Below are positions 5,719-64,000 of a stretch of 64,000 bases of DNA, in pieces. The translations under genes were made by a program, and so were the position numbers. This DNA is from Dioscorea cayenensis subsp. rotundata (Eukaryota; Streptophyta; Magnoliopsida; Dioscoreales; Dioscoreaceae). The notes under the pieces were generated by a model that ran no database searches, had not been told where the DNA came from, and saw nothing but the letters and a program-made list of their open reading frames with translations. Numbering within the stretch: the stretch's first letter is position 1; each line of letters begins with the position of its first letter. The stretch covers positions 25,977,016 through 26,041,015 of the forward strand of contig NC_052475.1 of NCBI RefSeq assembly GCF_009730915.1, written 5' to 3'.

Positions 5719-5759
5719 ATATCAGTATATGTTTCTAAAGTAATATCTATCACAGAGGC
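5677..5759 (+). promoter_or_regulatory. Core promoter and 5' leader of DUF506 copy B
   Basis: TATAAATA at 5677-5684 follows a CT-rich tract (about 5660-5676). It is followed by an (AT)n(GT)n microsatellite (about 5685-5720) and the ATG at 5760. Spacing allows a transcription start near 5710. Confidence 0.4.
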
Positions 5760-6581
5760 ATGGTTTTCATAAGAGCAAAACGGGTTACGGATCCTTTAAA
5801 CGAGAAGGTCCGCGCCCGGATCCGCGGAGATGACGGTCACTACGACACGAGCAGCAGCAGCGGCAGCGACCACGAAGGGACCTCCTTCTTCTCCGACCTC
5901 GTCAACGAGTTCCTCGAGAGCGACGACAACGCGCCACCAGACGACGCCGGCTCCGCCGAGGACGAGTCACCGGAATCACAAGCTGCTGAAGTGGCGGAGA
6001 TGGTGAAGGAGTTGCTCCGTTCGTCGGATAGGCTCCGACGGAGGGTGATCTCTGACGTTTGTGATGCCGCTAAGGTGTTTGATGGAATGCCAGCGGTGTT
6101 GTATAGGAGAGCGGTGATGGGGAGGTTGAGGGAGTTGGGGTATAATGCTGGGGTTTGCACGGCGAGGTGGGAGAGCTCCGGTGGGCTCACGGCGGGGAGC
6201 TATGAGTATGTGGATGTGGTGGTGGGGGAGAAGGTGAGGTACATAGTGGATCTGGATTTTAAGGCGGAGTTTGAGATTGCGAGGGCGACGGTGGAGTATG
6301 AGGATGTGGTGAGGCAGTTGCCGAAGGTGATGGTGGCGGTGCCGGAGGAGCTCCGGCGACTGGTGAAAATGGTGGCTGAGGCTGGGAGAAGGTCGATGAA
6401 GAGTAAGGGTTTGCATGTGCCACCGTGGAGGAAGGGGAGGTACGTTGTGGCTAAGTGGTTGGGGCCGTACCGACGAACGGTGAACGCCGGAGGTTTTAGG
6501 TACGGCGCCGGCGAGGTTAAGAGCCGTGCTGTTGGGTTTCTCGCCGGTGATGGTGATAGGGTTGTCAAGGTGGTGGTGTGA
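5760..6581 (+). CDS. DUF506 / PDDEXK-like family protein, copy B
   Basis: An intact intronless gene of 273 codons plus stop. Residues 1-30 (MVFIRAKRVTDPLNEKVRAR) match copy A. A Ser/Asp-rich acidic region follows, with FFSDLVNEFLE near residue 42. The DUF506 core starts near residue 95 (ISDVCDAAKVFDGMP), then VCTARWESS, GSYEYVDVVVGEKVRYIVDLDFKAEFEIARA (two segments joined) and VPPWRKGRYVVAKW near residue 220. IVDLDFKAEFEI fits the acidic/hydrophobic pattern expected at the PDDEXK-like centre. It is divergent to and inverted relative to the gene ending at 826, so the two are likely local duplicates. Third codon positions are GC-rich, unlike the AT-rich flanks, as usual for this family in monocots. 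The biochemical role is unknown. Confidence 0.93.
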   Translation: MVFIRAKRVTDPLNEKVRARIRGDDGHYDTSSSSGSDHEGTSFFSDLVNEFLESDDNAPPDDAGSAEDESPESQAAEVAEMVKELLRSSDRLRRRVISDVCDAAKVFDGMPAVLYRRAVMGRLRELGYNAGVCTARWESSGGLTAGSYEYVDVVVGEKVRYIVDLDFKAEFEIARATVEYEDVVRQLPKVMVAVPEELRRLVKMVAEAGRRSMKSKGLHVPPWRKGRYVVAKWLGPYRRTVNAGGFRYGAGEVKSRAVGFLAGDGDRVVKVVV

Positions 6582-25000: not shown

Positions 25001-28000
25001 TTTGTGATATCTTATACACACACACAGTTATATATATATATATATATATAGCATACAATTCAGAGATTTTTCAAATCTCCTTCACAAGATATAGAACTAC
25101 AATGCCAATATAACAGATTTGAGTCAAACTCTGCACAAAGTTCTTAGGTTCTGCCGTTTTGGCAAGCTTATTAAACCATTTAAGGATAGTTAATTCCAAA
25201 TGCAGGGTTGACCATTCCACATCCAAATGCCACCTATTAATTCTTGGCCAATCTTGGACAATTTAAACAGTCTTCATCTTTAAAGTCCAATCATGAATAA
25301 ATGTCCCGTCAAGATGATGTAAACATGAGGCAAAATGTCCATTGACAACCATAGTGAATTAAGAGAAACATTAGTTTGAGAAATATTTATGAAAACACCA
25401 ATATTATTACCAGCAAGATGATGAGACAGTAGGAAAATAGGACTATGAAATATACCTTATAATACAAAAGGGCCCTGGGAAGATCTCCTGCCTCCATGAA
25501 GAGCCCAGCTAGATTGGACCAAGCAATTGCAAATGTAGGCTGTATGCGCAAAGCTTCAATGTAACAGTTATAAGCCTGCATAGACAAAGCATGTTATCCG
25601 CATCATCCAGTAAGTATTTGGTCCAAAAACAGGACCTTGTGCAACCAACAGCGATACAGTATTATGTTAATCACATTTAAGCAGATTATATTAAATTACA
25701 TAAACTTATGTAAATCCAACATTGCCAACAAGGCATGTTTACTTGGGAATGGAGACAGTGGGACTAAAGTTTGCTTGTATGAATTACTTTTGGGAGGAAA
25801 ACTTTATTTGGAGTGGACCAAACTTTGGCTTAATTAATACTAACCAAAACTAAATATTTTAAGATTAATGCCAAGGATTTACAATGTGAAATATTATGAT
25901 ACTTCTACGGAGAAGTTCAACTAGAATGGAGTGAATTCCTTACTATGGTGCATACACTCATTAAACACTTGGAAGAAGCAGCAAGAAGATGCATATGAAA
26001 AAAATGATATCCCAAGGCTATTTGTAGCAACCATGCACCTGAAGTCAAAGACCATATTATTATGTATTAATAGGCCACATCTACAAAGTATCACAATGTT
26101 GAATATAATGCAAAGGTGAGGGAAGGTCTCCAGTTCAAAATTGGCATTTTTCTTGTGTTTAGATTTAAGACTAACCATTAAAACTTTGTACAACATTCAG
26201 ATTGTTCTGGATGCTTGAGCTTTTACTTCGGTAAATTAAAATTTCCTACAACTTACTATTTTAACTTATCAAACCCTCCATTGCACAAAAACCAAATTAC
26301 AATTAGTAAAAGGATGAACTCATCCCCAATATTGTTTATCAGAATTTGTCTACAATGACATAAATAAACTTTTCTATGACCAAATTCCACCCAGACAAAA
26401 CCTACTCTAAAACACTGGCAGATTCAAGAGGAATGCACATAGGTTGCTAATAAATAAGGAGCATCTAATCAAATGTAGGACAGAAACAAAAAGGTATTCA
26501 TTTTAGCTTACATCTTGAACTAAACCTTGAGCTTTTAACAAATTTCCGAGGTTACTGTGGGCGTCAACCTACATTGTATTAAAGAGAGATGTTAGGATGC
26601 GAATTATAAAAATTAAACCAATAATACATCAAAAAGATTCAAAAAAGTGCCACTTACCAAACGAGGATTCAAAGCAAGAGCTTGGCGACAACATTGAGCT
26701 GCCTCGTTAAGTCTTCCTTTCTTAGTGTACGCGCTCGCAAGATTTGACCATGCATCACAAAAATTAGGTCGAAGCTACAAAAAGATGAAGGTAAATGGCA
26801 ATTAGAAAAAATAAAGCAAACTTCAAAAGTAACCATGCATCACAAAAATTAGGTCGAAGCTACAAAAAGATGAAGGTAAATGGCAATTAGAAAAAATAAA
26901 GCAAACTTCAAAAGTAACCATGCATCACAAAAATTAGGTCGAAGCTACAAAAGATGAAGGTAAATGGCAATTAGAAAAAATAAAGCAAACTTCAAAACTC
27001 TATTTGATTGTGAAAGAATCAACCTCAACAGAAATTTGTAACACAGTATATTTGTATCAGTTGTTGCATTCCAAAAAATATAGTCAATACAAAAATAAAA
27101 AAAATAAAATAATTCAAAGTTCTTTTTCCCCATCTCCTATTTTCGCATGTTTGTGCAAAAAATACAGAGCTTTAGGATTTTTTTTTTCAGATTTCTTCTT
27201 CTTTAAGCAGTTTGTGTTTGTGCCTTTCTCTTAATACTGTTTCATATGTGTTCATGCCTTAATTGTTGCAAATTTCCTTCACCATGTCAACATCTACCAC
27301 CAGCCGTGAGTTGGGGGAAGCCATGGGGGTAACAGAGGCCTAAAAGTACACATAATAGAGCAGCCTAAGACCGAGAAAAAATCCTTAACATGGGCGTTAA
27401 CCAGTGAAAATTTTGATAAGTTAAAAATGTTGTCTCTTAAGAAGCCTTTCGGAGCTTGTTCTTTGGCTTTTTCAAGTAAATCTTCATTTCCTTTTTGCAT
27501 GAATGCCTCATACAAAATGTATGCAAATTCTTGGACAATAGACTTTGGTGCCACAGACCATATGGCCCCCATAGCACAACTCTCCAACACCTATGCACCA
27601 TGCTCGAGTAACAGAAACAAATTTTTAACTACTATTGCAGGATTCAACAACATATATATCTCACCCCTACGCTTATCCTCAAAAATGTATTCCATGTACC
27701 AAAATTATCAGTTGTATTTCCATTCACATGCTCACCCATGATTTTAAATGTTATGTTATTTTTTTCCCTTCTTACTGTGCTTTTCAAGATCAAGGGAGGA
27801 GAATTAGGCTTGCTAAGGAAAGAAATAGCTCATCTAAGAAAAGTGTGAGCAATTTATCTTTCTTTTTTCTCTATTCCTCAAACAAAGACGTCATTTGATT
27901 TGTATCAAATACAACCAGGTTGTCTATGCTTTAGGGTTTTAAAAGTCATATTTCTCATTTATTCAAGGGTTACATATTTCCAAGTTTCATTGTGATATTT

Positions 28001-31000: not shown

Positions 31001-32655
31001 CTCTTGTAAATTACTATATAATACTGTGTGGTATCAATTCATATGAAGTGAAAAATTCAGAATTCTCTTTCCCAACTCAGAATGTTTTTATTTTACATCC
31101 TTTCTCCAATGTATTGCCATTTTCACAATTAGCAAATGCAAATAATCCATTTGTAAATTGCTACCACAAATCAACCAATATTGCCTAGCTTTTACAAGTA
31201 TTAACCTCCTAGCTTAATAAGAAAGGTGTACCAGGAACTGTGTGGGACACAAAAATGGTAGGGGCAGGACTTAAAAAGCAAGAAAGACAAGAGATATACC
31301 CAATAATTATTTTCCAAGGACATTATTACTATAGAATTTTACAGCAGTTAATAAAGAGTATCTATATATCAGATTCTAGAACCTCACATGATTCAAATTA
31401 ACTGGAGTTAGCTGTTTAGCTAAGCACCAATTTAAGCAGAGAACATAATAGGATGGAAAGAAAGTTCCATGTGAAGCAGTGGAAGTTTTTTGGCAAAAAG
31501 AAAAGGACACTGCAGTGAACAAAGGATAAAAGAAACCACAACCATATGTTCAGAATTTGAAGAAAAACTCAGGAAAAAAATCTATGTCCAATAATTTTTG
31601 TGATGTGCCAGTGAACATAATTTAAACATTTTGTGCTAAAAATAAGTAAAATCAAATGTGAACAAACTAGATTTCAAGGGTTAAATAATTCTGCAGAAAA
31701 AAAGGCAGTCCACTCCATTCAATTTCCAAATATGCTACCCATACATATTCAACACCCTTAAGATTGCTATATAAATGCAAATAGATGTCTAATAAGGGCA
31801 ACTTGATGAAATTAACTTGCCATTAAGAAATCACGTAACTATCGGAAAATGATACGAACATTTGCCAAAAAGGACAAAAATAACGATATGCCAAGATGAT
31901 AAAACAACTCTCACAAGTTAAAATCACAAAAAAAAAACACAAACAAAAATGATATTCATAATTGAGAAAACAGAATAATTTCCTTATTGGATTTCTCCAA
32001 CGACAAAAAAACAAAAAGTGCCAGTAATTTCGATACATACCTCTATAGCAAACAAATAATAACGAATAGCAAGATCAATGTTGCCTTTTTCCTGCAGCCA
32101 AAAAATGGTAAAATATGAAAAAATACACTTATCTAAGTAATCAAACACAATTGCAATTTTAAGGAAAACAGTTGAATTGTTTTCCCTGGCTTGGCAATTC
32201 ATTCATTCTACTTAATGATCACCAATACATGTTTCAATTCCTCTTAAAAAAAAAGACTTACTTTCCAAGCATTTGCCATGTTGCCATAGCACTCTGCAAA
32301 GTGGGGATCAATGGAAAGAGCTTCCTCATTTTTCGCAATACACATATCATAATCGCGCAACTGAAGGAAGAAAAAGAGAAATACAGCTAGTATTCAGTTC
32401 ACATAGGTCAATCAAATAAGAACATCCGAACATGAAGAATGCATCATAGTAAGATTTTGAACAACAATTTCACATATACCCTTGCACTTCAAACCCCAAA
32501 AGAATCTCAATCAAAATACGTAAACATTATATACATATATATATATCCAAACATGCAGAATGCATCATAGTAAGATTTTGAACAACAATTTCACATATAC
32601 CCTTGCACTTCGAACCCCAAAAGAATCTCAATCAAAATACGTAAACATTATATAC

Positions 32656-32688
<33 letters not shown>

Positions 32689-35914: not shown

Positions 35915-36116
35915 TCAATCCATCTACACAGTCCCCTCATCTTGGATCTAACCACTATTTCAAATATCATTCACAGAGCCCACAACATTAACCTATGGTT
36001 TTGACTTCATGTCATCTTTCTGCTCCATTTGTCACCTCGAACTTGTATTGTATTGCATTCCATGCACAACCACCTATAGATAAAAGTTCTAACTCCAATA
36101 AAACATGCATTAAGGC

Positions 36117-36290
36117 CCTGTTTGGGTACCACTAAATTCCATAGGGAATGGTGGTAGTTCCTATGAAATTTAATATTATGTAAGAAATTACAATAATGGT
36201 TGTTTGGACATTCTTTTTACAGTATAAAATTACTATGGAATCATATAATTTTATAAAGAGGTGGAAACCAAATTTTTTTTATCATGTAGA
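36117..36290. mobile_element. Possible MITE fragment, left end only
   Basis: GGCCCTGTTTGGGTACC at about 36115 resembles PIF/Harbinger-type MITE termini. I found no inverted partner, so this is a truncated or chance match. Confidence 0.3.
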
Positions 36291-36954
36291 TAGTCATGGA
36301 GACATCTTCTGGGGAAGGGGTGCAAAAAAGAGTCTCTTAATCTAATATGCTCATATCTTTCTATTGCTAGCATTACTACAAAATTCAAAAACCGTTGGTT
36401 TCATCTCGATATGAATCTACCTTGAGTAGGCACCGCACTAACGTACTGTTTTATGACCCGATCAAGCATTACAACTTACCCTTACATCCCTGAATCCATA
36501 TGTCACACACAAAAATTCAATTCTTGAACATTGAGAATCTACTAATTCACCATAAACATCTGCTTACTAATTAAGGCCGACACCAAATCCTAGAAAGCTT
36601 CACTCTATCACTACTTTTTCTCTTCTAACCCGATCAAAATTTATTTTGAGGGTTCTTTGTAGCAAGTAAGAATTTTGTCTTCCTAACTTTTTCGCTTTTT
36701 CTCGAATGTGATATCAGCTCATTTTTCTTTTCTAATTTACATATGGAATCATGATAATCTCTTTACATTTGAGAATTTGCTAGAGTGAAAATTCTTATAT
36801 TTGCATCTTCATGTGGAGGAAAATATTTTATTACTTGGAAATACTTAGATTTGCCCCCAATAAGCTTCAACATTCTAGTGAAGTTTGCAACATCATGCTA
36901 CAACATAAGAATATTTTGAAAGCATGAGTGATAAAGCAAGAATGTCATCATGCC

Positions 36955-37954
36955 NNNNNNNNNNNNNNNNNNNNNNNNNNNNNNNNNNNNNNNNNNNNNN
37001 NNNNNNNNNNNNNNNNNNNNNNNNNNNNNNNNNNNNNNNNNNNNNNNNNNNNNNNNNNNNNNNNNNNNNNNNNNNNNNNNNNNNNNNNNNNNNNNNNNNN
37101 NNNNNNNNNNNNNNNNNNNNNNNNNNNNNNNNNNNNNNNNNNNNNNNNNNNNNNNNNNNNNNNNNNNNNNNNNNNNNNNNNNNNNNNNNNNNNNNNNNNN
37201 NNNNNNNNNNNNNNNNNNNNNNNNNNNNNNNNNNNNNNNNNNNNNNNNNNNNNNNNNNNNNNNNNNNNNNNNNNNNNNNNNNNNNNNNNNNNNNNNNNNN
37301 NNNNNNNNNNNNNNNNNNNNNNNNNNNNNNNNNNNNNNNNNNNNNNNNNNNNNNNNNNNNNNNNNNNNNNNNNNNNNNNNNNNNNNNNNNNNNNNNNNNN
37401 NNNNNNNNNNNNNNNNNNNNNNNNNNNNNNNNNNNNNNNNNNNNNNNNNNNNNNNNNNNNNNNNNNNNNNNNNNNNNNNNNNNNNNNNNNNNNNNNNNNN
37501 NNNNNNNNNNNNNNNNNNNNNNNNNNNNNNNNNNNNNNNNNNNNNNNNNNNNNNNNNNNNNNNNNNNNNNNNNNNNNNNNNNNNNNNNNNNNNNNNNNNN
37601 NNNNNNNNNNNNNNNNNNNNNNNNNNNNNNNNNNNNNNNNNNNNNNNNNNNNNNNNNNNNNNNNNNNNNNNNNNNNNNNNNNNNNNNNNNNNNNNNNNNN
37701 NNNNNNNNNNNNNNNNNNNNNNNNNNNNNNNNNNNNNNNNNNNNNNNNNNNNNNNNNNNNNNNNNNNNNNNNNNNNNNNNNNNNNNNNNNNNNNNNNNNN
37801 NNNNNNNNNNNNNNNNNNNNNNNNNNNNNNNNNNNNNNNNNNNNNNNNNNNNNNNNNNNNNNNNNNNNNNNNNNNNNNNNNNNNNNNNNNNNNNNNNNNN
37901 NNNNNNNNNNNNNNNNNNNNNNNNNNNNNNNNNNNNNNNNNNNNNNNNNNNNNN
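36955..37954. other. Assembly gap (1000 N)
   Basis: Exactly 1000 N, likely a placeholder of arbitrary length. Open frames running through it are meaningless. Confidence 1.
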
Positions 37955-37980
37955 GAAAAGTGGTTCACCAATATGCATGC

Positions 37981-37982
37981 AC

Positions 37983-38017
<35 letters not shown>
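37981..38017. repeat. (GAT)n microsatellite next to the gap
   Basis: About eleven GAT units only 27 bases right of the gap. Repetitive DNA may have caused the assembly break. Confidence 0.9.
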
Positions 38018-59640: not shown

Positions 59641-60056
59641 CAGTGACATATATTTCTCTTTTTGCCCTTGGGATGGAGGGAAAAATACCGCCCAATCACA
59701 TCACGTCTAGTCTAACCTCTATGCATACAACTGTGCACTTTTTTGTTTGCCTATCTGACTGCTGTTTGTTGTTTACATCTTCTTCTTCTTCTTCTTCGTC
59801 TTATTTTTGTTCTTCATTTCATTTGGTTTGTATGATTTGGTTTTCGGCCGATATATTATGGAGAGTTTTTGTGGTATTGCTAGAATCAACGGGGAGGGAA
59901 GAGTGTTAATGTTCACGGCTCAGACTTCTTGGGAGTTGGTGTTAGCTGAGATATGTGAGCGATGGGGTCTCGAAGTTTCTCTTGTCAGGGTTAAGTTTAT
60001 CACATCAGATGGATATAAAACGGTTTGTCCAATAGAAAACGATATTGACTTCCAGC
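59640..60056 (+). mobile_element. MULE fragment 2 with intact N-terminal frame, interrupted by hAT
   Basis: The start, TTTTTGCCC and GCCCAATCACATCA at about 59657-59703, matches 57555-57600 of fragment 1 in the same orientation. From ATG at 59858 a frame runs MESFCGIARINGEGRVLM, then WELVLAEICERWGLEV, VRVKFIT and YKTVCPIENDIDFQ. This is the same protein region as fragment 1 (IYKSVSPEKNEVDFH) and typical of MULE-encoded proteins. The match stops exactly at 60055-60056, where the hAT-like terminus begins; the frame then runs through it to 60238 by chance. Confidence 0.55.
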
Positions 60057-60943
60057 TAGAGGTGTCAAATGGGCCGGCACGGCTCGGGCCCATGGTAGCC
60101 CGGGAACTGTGCGTGTCCGGGCCGGCCCGGCCCATGACTTTGTCGTGCCGGGCCGGCACTGCCCGCAAATGGTGGAGGGTCGGCCCAGCACGAGACACGG
60201 CCCACTTTGGCCGGGCTCGTGCCGTGCCGGCCCGTTAGTATTTTTTAATATAAAATATTTAAAAAAATAAAAATATATCTAAAAAAATCAGAAAAATTTA
60301 AAAAAATTTGAAAATATAACAAACATTATCTAATAATATAAATATAAATTAAATTTTACTATAATTGAAAAACTATATTATCATTATCTATTTATCTTGA
60401 AATAAAATCCTTCTCCATTTCCAGATTTTCTAAATGACTAAATCCTTAGTTCAATTTCAATGACTTCAATCAACAGATTCAACACAAATATTCAAATAAT
60501 CCGATAACCATTTTCAATTTCCTGTAAAGAAGAAGTGAAGAACTATACAAGCAAAAGAAAATTAAAAAGAAAGAAAATCACATTAAAACTTGGGTCTCAA
60601 TGTCGCATAAAGATGAAGAGTTTACAGAATCATCAATCAAGAGAGCATGAGATTTATTAATACAAATCTAAATAAATCATGGGGATGAATTCTAAATAAA
60701 TCAAAGAAAAGCCATGCCATTATGCCAACAACAACAAGAAGAAAAAAACAGCAGCAACATAGATGCTTGTTTGTATGTTGTTTGCAAACAGATATACAAG
60801 GAATCACGGAAGTTGAGCCGTCCTCTGATTCCTGCATATGAGGTTAATACAGATGAGTTGAATACAGATATATATATATATATAGCAGAAGGTAAGGCAA
60901 TGCTTATAGTATAACATTCACAAACATAAAAACTAGTTGAAGA

Positions 60944-61206
60944 ATGGAAGTGATGTTGTTCTATTTACTTCTCTTCAGCTTCTCACTCTTGTTCCTGATC
61001 TTAATCAATCTTAGAAGCAGGATTAATAAGAACAAGTACTACTCAGGAGGAGCTAGACTACCACCAGGGCCATGGCGACTGCCCATCGTCGGAAGCATGC
61101 ACCACCTCATTGGTTCACTGCCACACCGGTGGCTGACCGAGCTGGCCAAAAGACATGGGCCGCTGATGTACCTCAAGCTCGGCAAGGTCTCCACCATCGT
61201 CGTTTC
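60944..61206 (+). pseudogene. Cytochrome P450 (CYP71-like) N-terminal fragment
   Basis: About 88 codons from ATG match a CYP71-clan N-terminus. There is a hydrophobic membrane anchor ([18 protein letters not shown]), then the proline hinge [20 protein letters not shown] and [21 protein letters not shown]. Similarity stops at VVSS near 61206. No heme-binding loop or other P450 region follows, so it cannot be an enzyme. The frame stays open by chance to 61552 across the antisense glycosylase relic. An (AT)n/TATA-like tract lies at 60868-60884, so transcription is possible. Confidence 0.75.
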
Positions 61207-61219
61207 CTCAAGCTCTGGC

Positions 61220-61807
61220 TCTTCGTTCTCATCAGTCCTCACCCACAGACAAGGCCCTCAAGTACTCCAAGCAAATCTCCCCCCTTCTTTCCATCACATC
61301 CTTCAAAATACTTCGTATCCTCGATGCCTTAGTCACCGCCAGGCCCCCATGGCATCCTCCACTCATTTCGGCTCAGCATTAAGAACCTTCAAAGCGGCAA
61401 CCAACCGATCAAGAACAAAGATAAGGATCAACAAAGAAGAATCAACAAGGTTTAGTAGTTTACATCATTCCACGCGTGGAATGCGGACTTCAAGGAGAGG
61501 AAAGCACGGCGGGAGTTGGAGTCAGTCGTGTTCTGGGAGAGAAGGATGCTGACGACGCCATCGAGGACGGTCTTCTCCGGAGGAGCTTCGTCGGAGGGGT
61601 CAGGATTGCGATACTTGGCGAGGTCTCTGGGGATACCATGGAGGGCAAGAAGGTCGTTGCGGACGGCACGGCATTGGGCCGGCGTGGGTTGGTGATGCTC
61701 CGGGAACAGATCAGGGGAGGTCCGGGAAGAGGAGGCTGGAGAGATTAGCAGAGGATTTGGGGGATCCGGGATTGTGTAGTCTTCTTCCGCTTAGGGTTTC
61801 GAGGCAT
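61220..61807 (-). pseudogene. HhH-GPD DNA glycosylase gene fragment (At3g47830-like), intron retained
   Basis: Reading leftward from ATG at 61807, MPRNPKRKKTTQSRIP then (after a 1-base frameshift) [47 protein letters not shown] and [20 protein letters not shown] donor at 61463 and an acceptor at 61387-61388 bound a 77-nt intron. Exon 2 then reads VLNAEPK, a stop where Trp is expected, VEDAM, a frameshift, and [20 protein letters not shown] then [12 protein letters not shown], near 61234. These match plant HhH-GPD glycosylases of the At3g47830 type up to just before the catalytic helix-hairpin-helix. Keeping the intron shows capture of genomic DNA, not of mRNA. Confidence 0.75.
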
Positions 61808-61947
61808 TGTTGCCCACTTGCCCACTTGCCCCAATTAAATAAAGTAATAAATTATAAAAATAACAAAATTAATATTATTTGAATTTTGAATTAAACCAAA
61901 ATACTTATTTTTTTTTATTTTAAATTTGAACATTTGAAATAATAAAA

Positions 61948-62012
61948 TCCAAGACTAATCTTTTTTATTTTTAATTTAAACATTTGAAATAATAAAAAAA
62001 ATTAGTCTTGGA
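61948..62012. repeat. Inverted repeat (about 23-bp arms) with overlapping direct repeat at the hAT gene 3' end
   Basis: TCCAAGACTAAT plus a T-rich run (61948-61970) pairs with its reverse complement at about 61990-62012, which includes the transposase stop codon. CATTTGAAATAATAAAA is also repeated directly at 61931 and 61981. Confidence 0.8.
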
Positions 62013-64000
62013 ATCTTGGCATCTTGCAAGCTTGAGGCTCATCAATCTATTTCTTCTACATCAGTATATATGCCTTCTCCGCCGTCATCAGGGGTGAATT
62101 GTTCTATTTTACCTTGTAATCTATCTTCAGCATCTAGCCAATCCTTCAAACATATGCACATTTTGCACTGTTTGATTATTCATTCTGCTCCTCCTATCAT
62201 CCAATACTCTTTTTCCTGCACTAAAACAAGACTCCGATGCTACTGTAGACATCGGTGGAGTTAACAGATCACGAGCCATGGCGGCAAGTACAGGATAACT
62301 ATGTGCATGTTGTTTCCACCATGCCAAAATATCAAAACCATCTATTTCTTCCGATGTAAGGAAATTATTAATATTATTATTTAAATAATGATTTATTTCA
62401 TGAGAAGTAGAAGAAGTGCTAGAAGAAGAAGAAGCACCTGTGGAAAATTTTCTTTTAATTATATTTACAACATAAGTGGCGGATCTATTTTTGGTGCTTG
62501 AAGAGGAACTTTCACTAGATTGAGGCATATTGAAAGTCCTTCTATCACCATATTTTCTATAATATTCATTATACATATCATAAAATAAAGAACGATAATT
62601 TTCTTTCAAAATAGAATGATCAAGACCCATATTATTATCATAAGAATCAATTATGCAAAAAGTGCCATCAATTTTAAAACGGGGGTCAGAAAACATAGCT
62701 AAAATAGGAAGTGGTTAAATTTTTCCAAAATATTTTTTAAATTTTCCCTCCATAGGAGCAATAATAGGAGCAAAATTAGGGTCTTCTCTATATTTTGCAA
62801 AAATCTCACTAATAAAAAATATTTGGTTAAAAATAATAGATGAAGTGGAATAATAAACACCGGACAAAATATTAGTTGAAGCATAAAAAATTTCCAAAAA
62901 TTCCTTAATAAATGGCTCACTTCCCAATCATAATTAGTGACATGATCATCGGGAAATCTCTCATTAACAAACATAGAAATAATATCTCTATCATTATAAG
63001 CACACTCCAACATTTCATAAGTTGAATTCCACCTATGCTCAACATCAATAATATATCTTTTACATTTTCTCCCCCTTTCCGAACAATAAGCTTGAAATCA
63101 TGTCTTCGGGTTGAACCATTTCGAACATATAAAATAGAATTTCGAACTTTTTTAATATGGGGCTCAATTATTTTTAAACCTTCTCTAACACATAAATTCA
63201 AAACATGACAAGCACAACGCACATGAAAAAAAGCCCCGGAAAATAAAGGCATTAAATTCATTTTTAAAAGATCGACCGCATTGTTATTTGCCGAAGCATT
63301 ATCCAAAGTTATTGAAAATATAGAACTCGAAATACTATACTCATTAATAGCCCGAGTTATATAACTTGCAATAACACTTGCGGTATGGCGGTGTTCTAAT
63401 TCAAAAAAACTTAAAAATACGCTTTTTGCAAAAACCCAATTATTATCAATATAGTGAGCGGTAACACAAAGATAATTTGTTTGAAATTGAGAAGACCAAA
63501 TATCCGAAGTAAGAGAAATTTTAAAAGAACAAGAAGATAATTCGGAAATTAATTTTTGTTTATAATCATCATAAATAATAAGACAATATTTTCTCATAGT
63601 ATTTCTTGAAACCGATTTAAAAATTTGGATTAAAACCTCGAATAAAGCATTTTTTTATAAAAGCGGTATTTTTCGGCAAGATAAAAAAAGGTTGCTCATT
63701 TTGAACAATAAATTTCGCAACTTCTTTTCTTGCATTTTCATTATTAAAAATAAAATTTCCCATACTCGAATCAGTAAAACTAATTTGCGTTTGTGTGGGA
63801 TCGTGTAGCTTCGCGGCATACTTGTCGGCATGTCTTTTTAAATGCCCCGTCCCCCCCGAAGTTTGGCAAGAAAAATCCTTTTTACATTTTTTACAAACCG
63901 CCCGAGTGCCTTTGTTCGGAAAATCAACAATGTCATAAAATTGCCAAACCCCGGAAGTTCGTTTTCTAGAGTTTTTAGGGTTGTTACTTGATGGCCCAAT
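62002..64000 (-). pseudogene. hAT transposase, broken by several frameshifts (5' end beyond window)
   Basis: Reading leftward: a BED zinc finger (GVWQFYDIVDF, CKKCKKDF, GHLKRH) at about 63790-63960, and the RNase H-like core (SLTSDIWSSQF, ITLDNASANNNAV, RCACHVLNLCVREGL) at about 63150-63597. The middle helical part is spread over several frames (62715-63050). The hAT dimerisation domain (FDILAWWKQHAHSYPVLAAMARD, LLTPPMSTVASESCFS) lies at about 62180-62340, and an acidic C-tail ends at 62002. Frameshifts occur in a T-run near 63622, near 63050-63090, near 62925, near 62700 and near 62150. In an active hAT enzyme this would cut and rejoin DNA at the element ends; this copy cannot be functional. 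Confidence 0.85.

Follow-up and report, generated by a model that had tools for sequence, protein, structure and literature searches.

A hAT transposon in the yam Dioscorea cayenensis subsp. rotundata with a broken transposase gene and fragments of two host genes

Introduction

How cut-and-paste transposons acquire host genes is still argued in the sections on capture of two reports (PMC3260210, PMC8277862): break repair at microhomologies has been proposed for maize Ds in the former, and repair with template switching for the Pack-TIRs of animals in the latter. Among hAT elements, the sections of PMC2528002 on grapevine Hatvine-6 describe a shared transposase and shared ends together with a variable remainder that often matches host exons and introns, and the pipeline set out in the corresponding section of PMC8903248 sorts out elements that match a transposase as 'autonomous'. 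A text search of a plant gene-capture review from 2026 gave no mention of hAT, and no report of gene capture by a transposon in Dioscorea was found in the literature searched. Capture of genes by hAT elements is already known; the present case is well resolved and bears a transposase gene.

The window (that is, the whole 64,000-nucleotide stretch analysed, C5:25977016-26041015 of G000) contains most of what we are highly confident is one hAT transposon (60057-64897), with a broken transposase gene and, between this gene and the 3′ terminus, two host-gene fragments as cargo. The element has both ends, an 8-bp target duplication, an interrupted MULE-like gene around it and two fragments with source homology; the same fusion stands in a second element and the glycosylase fragment alone in two elements, all at other targets.

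Results

The element measures 4841 bp with both ends read, the right end lying outside the window. The hAT 3′ terminus and a GC-rich subterminal block (60057-60236, minus strand) are followed by the 3′ region of the hAT itself (60237-60759, minus strand), which is common to family copies and which, relative to several of these, has lost 84-127 bp at position 60671. At 64897, in genome sequence beyond the window, the terminus of 60057 recurs in inverted copy and is followed by CTTCCAGC, so that an exact 8-bp repeat stands at 60049-60056 on the left and, outside the window, at 64898-64905 on the right. The terminal inverted repeats are short (18 of the first 20 bases agree between the ends), GC-rich blocks are present at both ends (about 180 bp on the left, about 300 bp on the right), and the 5′ terminal region runs from the transposase ATG side to 64897. 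With its 8-bp duplication, short inverted repeats and BED and dimerisation domains, the element has the features of the hAT superfamily.

An earlier note on this DNA had placed a hAT-like terminus at 60057, had seen no other between it and the transposase, and had proposed that an inverted copy followed by CTTCCAGC be sought to the right. The terminus is real, being found at at least 39 further genome places (40 of 132 first-look candidates scored, 41 rows), with 34 of the 39 matches starting at query bases 3-12 (query base 8 is 60057). No second terminus in 60241-64000 beat the best of 100 single-base shuffles, the closest approach being a score of 23 for the 184-bp terminus at two GC-rich positions in coding sequence, as against at most 24 in the shuffles, and the inverted copy with its CTTCCAGC was found at 64879-64905.

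Joined without the element, the flanks form a continuous reading frame across the insertion site, and the site is uninterrupted in 40/40 scored genome paralogues. We take this frame to be the N-terminal part of a MULE transposase; Pfam recognized no family in its left part. The hAT splits the MULE-like gene into window 59759-60056 and a portion beyond 64905, and the MULE family that it hit may be very large, given 2105 first-look candidates. Elsewhere in the window, an inverted pair of about 760 bp (65-824 and 5757-6513, 80% identical) possibly represents the ends of another element, short tandem duplications occupy 26747-26997 (99%) and 32424-32667 (97%), and 36001-38000 is very AT-rich (GC 0.168).

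The hAT transposase pseudogene claimed for the minus strand is present there at 62042-64000 within the window, with its start codon at 64111 outside it and its stop codon at 62044-62042. Pfam identifies a BED finger (PF02892, E 8.5e-06) and Dimer_Tnp_hAT (PF05699, E 1.3e-22), together with a DUF659 match below its cut-off (E 0.00051). Compared by eye with a D. alata relative (P0049), the frame is broken by about four frameshifts and one stop; the Ac group is suggested solely by the source name attached to P0150, a distant relative. AT-rich hAT sequence (61841-62041, minus strand) follows downstream of the gene. An imperfect hairpin with 25-nt arms (92% complementary) lies just downstream of the transposase gene at 61948-62012, where it overlaps two 42-nt direct repeats.

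The cargo begins with a fragment of a CYP71-type P450 gene (60756-61209, plus strand) that is 95.7% identical overall to its source on C15 (L060:5381-4918) and consists of 188 bp of 5′ flank (93%) and a coding part of about 88 N-terminal codons (98%), with the ATG at 60944. The source codes for a premnaspirodiene oxygenase-like protein of 506 aa (P0044). In the captured piece the P450 frame stays open for 88 codons and then continues into antisense glycosylase. A Logan protein, P0042, has the same P450-glycosylase fusion and is nearest to the window copy (94.8% identity over 135 aa versus 68% over 180 to C9); we do not count it as expression.

Next to it lies a fragment of an HhH-GPD DNA glycosylase gene (At3g47830-like; 61237-61815, minus strand), 92.7% identical, intron included, to its source on C8 (L069:2062-1496); past 61815, a 13-bp insertion is followed by 8 further source-like bases, to about 61838. 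Capture from RNA is rejected because the intron is retained in the element. L069 codes for residues 1-182 of P0001 (putative DNA glycosylase At3g47830, 265 aa), and the part of P0001 beyond residue 182 was not found within the L069 stretch examined. The carried copy has decayed, with frameshifts and a stop. At positions 79 and 132 of P0001 the captured fragment has V and S, as in D. rotundata P0001, and D. sansibarensis and D. zingiberensis differ there; these two residues suggest, if thinly, capture in the D. rotundata lineage. Neither source stretch (L060, L069) contains hAT core or transposase sequence. The earlier note was thus right about a plus-strand P450 N-terminus, which DNA homology extends into the 5′ flank, and about a minus-strand, intron-containing HhH-GPD piece, and its gap of about 25 bases between them measures 27 bp.

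Those 27 bp (61210-61236, plus strand) are the remnant of an older insert that matches the C7 element, window 61211-61246 being 91.7% identical over 36 bp to C7 element bases 786-821. Because the source loci are about 93-99% identical, breakpoints are readable base by base. At the left P450 join, the element (AGCAACA) and the source (AACATAGATG) have four bases in common; at the right one, source homology ends within TTTCCTC, whereupon the older insert resumes; and the older insert meets the glycosylase with GTC-TCACC on both sides. The capture mechanism is what we infer from these short matches: the joins look like break repair at microhomologies, of the kind put forward for maize Ds and animal Pack-TIRs. 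Pfam found no family in the older insert or in the third insert type (see below), and an LPPGP motif, seen by eye, would make the older insert a P450-like N-terminus.

Searching the genome with the cargo gave seven matches (7/7 candidates scored). Besides the window and the two sources, these were C9, which has both fragments (95%), C7 and C20, which have only the glycosylase (91%), and a weak P450 match (71%); no free copy of the fusion outside a hAT was among them. The search for same-cargo copies and parental genes that the earlier note had advised therefore yielded the C9 copy and the sources on C15 and C8. Exact and mutually different 8-bp repeats flank 9 of the 13 copies read (C5, C9, C20, C7, C14a, C3a, C18, C26 and C14b); in the other four no matching duplication was seen (5 mismatches in C19, 8 in C8; right end not found in C3b and C2). 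As all four glycosylase carriers (C5, that is, the window copy, C9, C7 and C20) have exact target duplications of their own, both fragments are mobile cargo. The C9 and window elements align over their full length at 94.5%, with a K80 distance of 0.0366 over 4797 ungapped sites; taking for rice 1.3e-8 substitutions per site per year, this corresponds roughly to a divergence of about 1.4 million years. The C20 cargo (L031:6268-6840) encodes an annotated D. rotundata protein, P0004 ('putative DNA glycosylase At3g47830', 162 aa), which is probably transposon cargo and not a host gene.

C7 and C20 have a left 1.3 kb in common with C18 and C14b (C7-C18 96.5%, C7-C14b 94.3%). This part holds an antisense PROPPIN/ATG18-like fragment (L035:4859-5376 and equivalents; Pfam PF21032, E 6.8e-13; structure matches are PROPPINs such as WIPI3) with a source at C9:2813252-2813991 that matches in two pieces (96% and 99%); about 218 bp between these pieces are missing from the element. 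Past the PROPPIN piece, the glycosylase follows in C7 and C20 and other sequence in C18 and C14b. The window and C9 copies are without the PROPPIN piece and keep 27 bp of the older insert, which is longer in C7 and C20, between P450 and glycosylase. At the left glycosylase breakpoint, C7 and C20 retain 25 bp more source homology, joined directly to the PROPPIN piece; the right breakpoint is identical in all four carriers.

At 7 of 48 variable glycosylase sites all four copies depart from the source; 6 changes are common to window and C9 only, 4 to C7 and C20 only, 25 are single-copy changes and 2 are three-state sites; the remaining 4 are conflicting or mixed (patterns 01010, 01001, 00101 and 01110, one each), by which the pairing of window with C9 and of C7 with C20 is partly contradicted. 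The transposase tree unites the four carriers in one clade (support 1.000; window and C9, 0.851; placement of C20, 0.261), and a trimmed core tree recovers the carrier clade at 0.985 but includes C26 on a long branch. Given the common right breakpoint, the 7 shared differences and the single transposase clade, the four fragments fit one capture of the glycosylase. C18 and C14b are near the carriers in the left part but not in the transposase part of the tree, and because they are close in the left part only, the halves of the elements have probably recombined.

All 20 family loci read match the family core; in four C26-type loci the match reaches no further than about base 633, and in C6 it begins at base 78. 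What follows the core differs among them: P450 and glycosylase (2/20), older insert with PROPPIN and glycosylase (2/20), older insert with PROPPIN and the third type (2/20), older insert with the third type (3/20), a C3-type insert (6/20), a partly C3-type insert in C16 (1/20) and a C26-type start (4/20). The transposase C-terminus was found at 17/20 of these short loci, for C7 and C20 in longer stretches, and was not seen at the C6 locus. C26 (L036) and C1:19020434-19021422 share a further insert that is 96% identical over 570 bp to C18:9197380-9197949, its likely source; Pfam gave one match for the C26 insert, below threshold (E 0.099). Four fragments, namely the P450, the glycosylase, the PROPPIN piece and the piece from C18:9.2 Mb, thus have separate genome sources. 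The starts of three inserts (P450, older insert and C3-type insert) fall within about 5 bp of one core position, near core base 783, window 60759.

Discussion

Most simply, the series inferred from these sequences would run from PROPPIN to glycosylase to P450, an order that rests on four carriers and two relatives. An insert with the PROPPIN/ATG18-like fragment would have been gained first (the state of C18 and C14b), then the glycosylase fragment (the state of C7 and C20), after which a deletion would have removed the PROPPIN piece and the P450 been inserted (the state of window and C9), the lineage continuing to transpose while cargo accumulated stepwise. Each capture probably occurred during repair of a break inside the element, through a switch of the copying strand, at short microhomologies, to a distant gene; thereafter the enlarged element would have moved by cut and paste, using its own transposase (while intact) or that of a relative.

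Seen in the window alone, with transposase and glycosylase both decayed, the locus is compatible with a chance pile-up in which the fragments and a separate hAT met by unrelated insertions or rearrangements, C9 being a segmental duplication. We give this next to no credence and reject it, as everything lies between one pair of ends that have an exact duplication, and C9 holds the same contents in an element flanked by different target duplications. Helitrons and MULEs often capture genes, and a Helitron or Pack-MULE might have made the fusion before inserting into the hAT. The cargo flanks do have a weak AT-rich similarity (shuffles as good: 3/200 inverted, 1/200 direct), but this consists of nothing but A and T over 32-38 bp, and beyond it no long inverted repeat was found at the flanks and none at the joins. 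The joins themselves have short microhomologies and no element ends (judged by eye for Helitron ends), and C7 and C20 carry one fragment without the other, so the two were not gained together; we consider such a nested carrier very improbable.

More room is left for another order of events, for example P450 and glycosylase first, with the form of C7 and C20 arising by recombination with a PROPPIN-bearing element, given that the relationships among the elements are not quite the same for their left and right parts. Even so, we regard it as unlikely: C7 and C20 keep the additional 25 bp of source homology directly at the PROPPIN piece, and the remnant beside the P450 in window and C9 is what a deletion followed by an insertion would be expected to leave. 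We therefore retain a single hAT with cargo gained in the order PROPPIN, glycosylase, P450 as the simplest series. The earlier note had weighed a Pack-type hAT against successive insertions into one place. Its cargo stands, whereas the published sense of Pack-type does not apply, as a broken transposase gene is present; successive gain is likely, but inside one mobile element.

More tentatively, and with slightly less than an even chance in our estimation, the site between the 3′ subterminal block and the transposase gene may be a fixed cargo bay where host-gene fragments come in, are cut back and are replaced again and again, with ends and transposase preserved. Some insert types, the older insert or the C3-type insert among them, may belong to the element itself. 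If real, the bay would be a hot spot of capture, perhaps at recurrent breaks or stalled forks. Within a single genome, separate insertions of this family apparently preserve the stages before, midway through and after capture, and pipelines that set aside transposase-matching elements would miss such carriers.

Compared with the systems described in the cited sections, the yam element resembles Hatvine-6 as a hAT with conserved transposase and ends and host-gene pieces (PMC2528002); that account traces neither where the pieces came from nor the order in which they were gained, whereas sources, breakpoints and intermediates are followed in yam. Like maize Ds2 and Ds-l4, it is a hAT with 8-bp duplications and intron-bearing fragments from genes on other chromosomes, but these Ds elements, as portrayed there, are short, lack a working transposase gene and hold one gene fragment each (PMC3260210). 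With the Pack-hATs of maize and rice it has in common coding-gene fragments, here from C15 and C8, bounded by hAT ends and 8-bp duplications, and it has more than one loaded copy (the fusion also on C9, the glycosylase alone in C7 and C20); Pack-hATs are defined in that part of PMC8903248 as non-autonomous, and the yam element, which contains a transposase pseudogene (62042-64111), falls outside this definition. It works like a Pack-hAT but, owing to its transposase match, is not filed as Pack-TYPE. As in the Pack-TIRs of animals, in the relevant sections of PMC8277862, filler is joined at microhomologies and multiple copies have distinct target duplications; unlike these, the yam case is one of serial capture within one plant hAT lineage.
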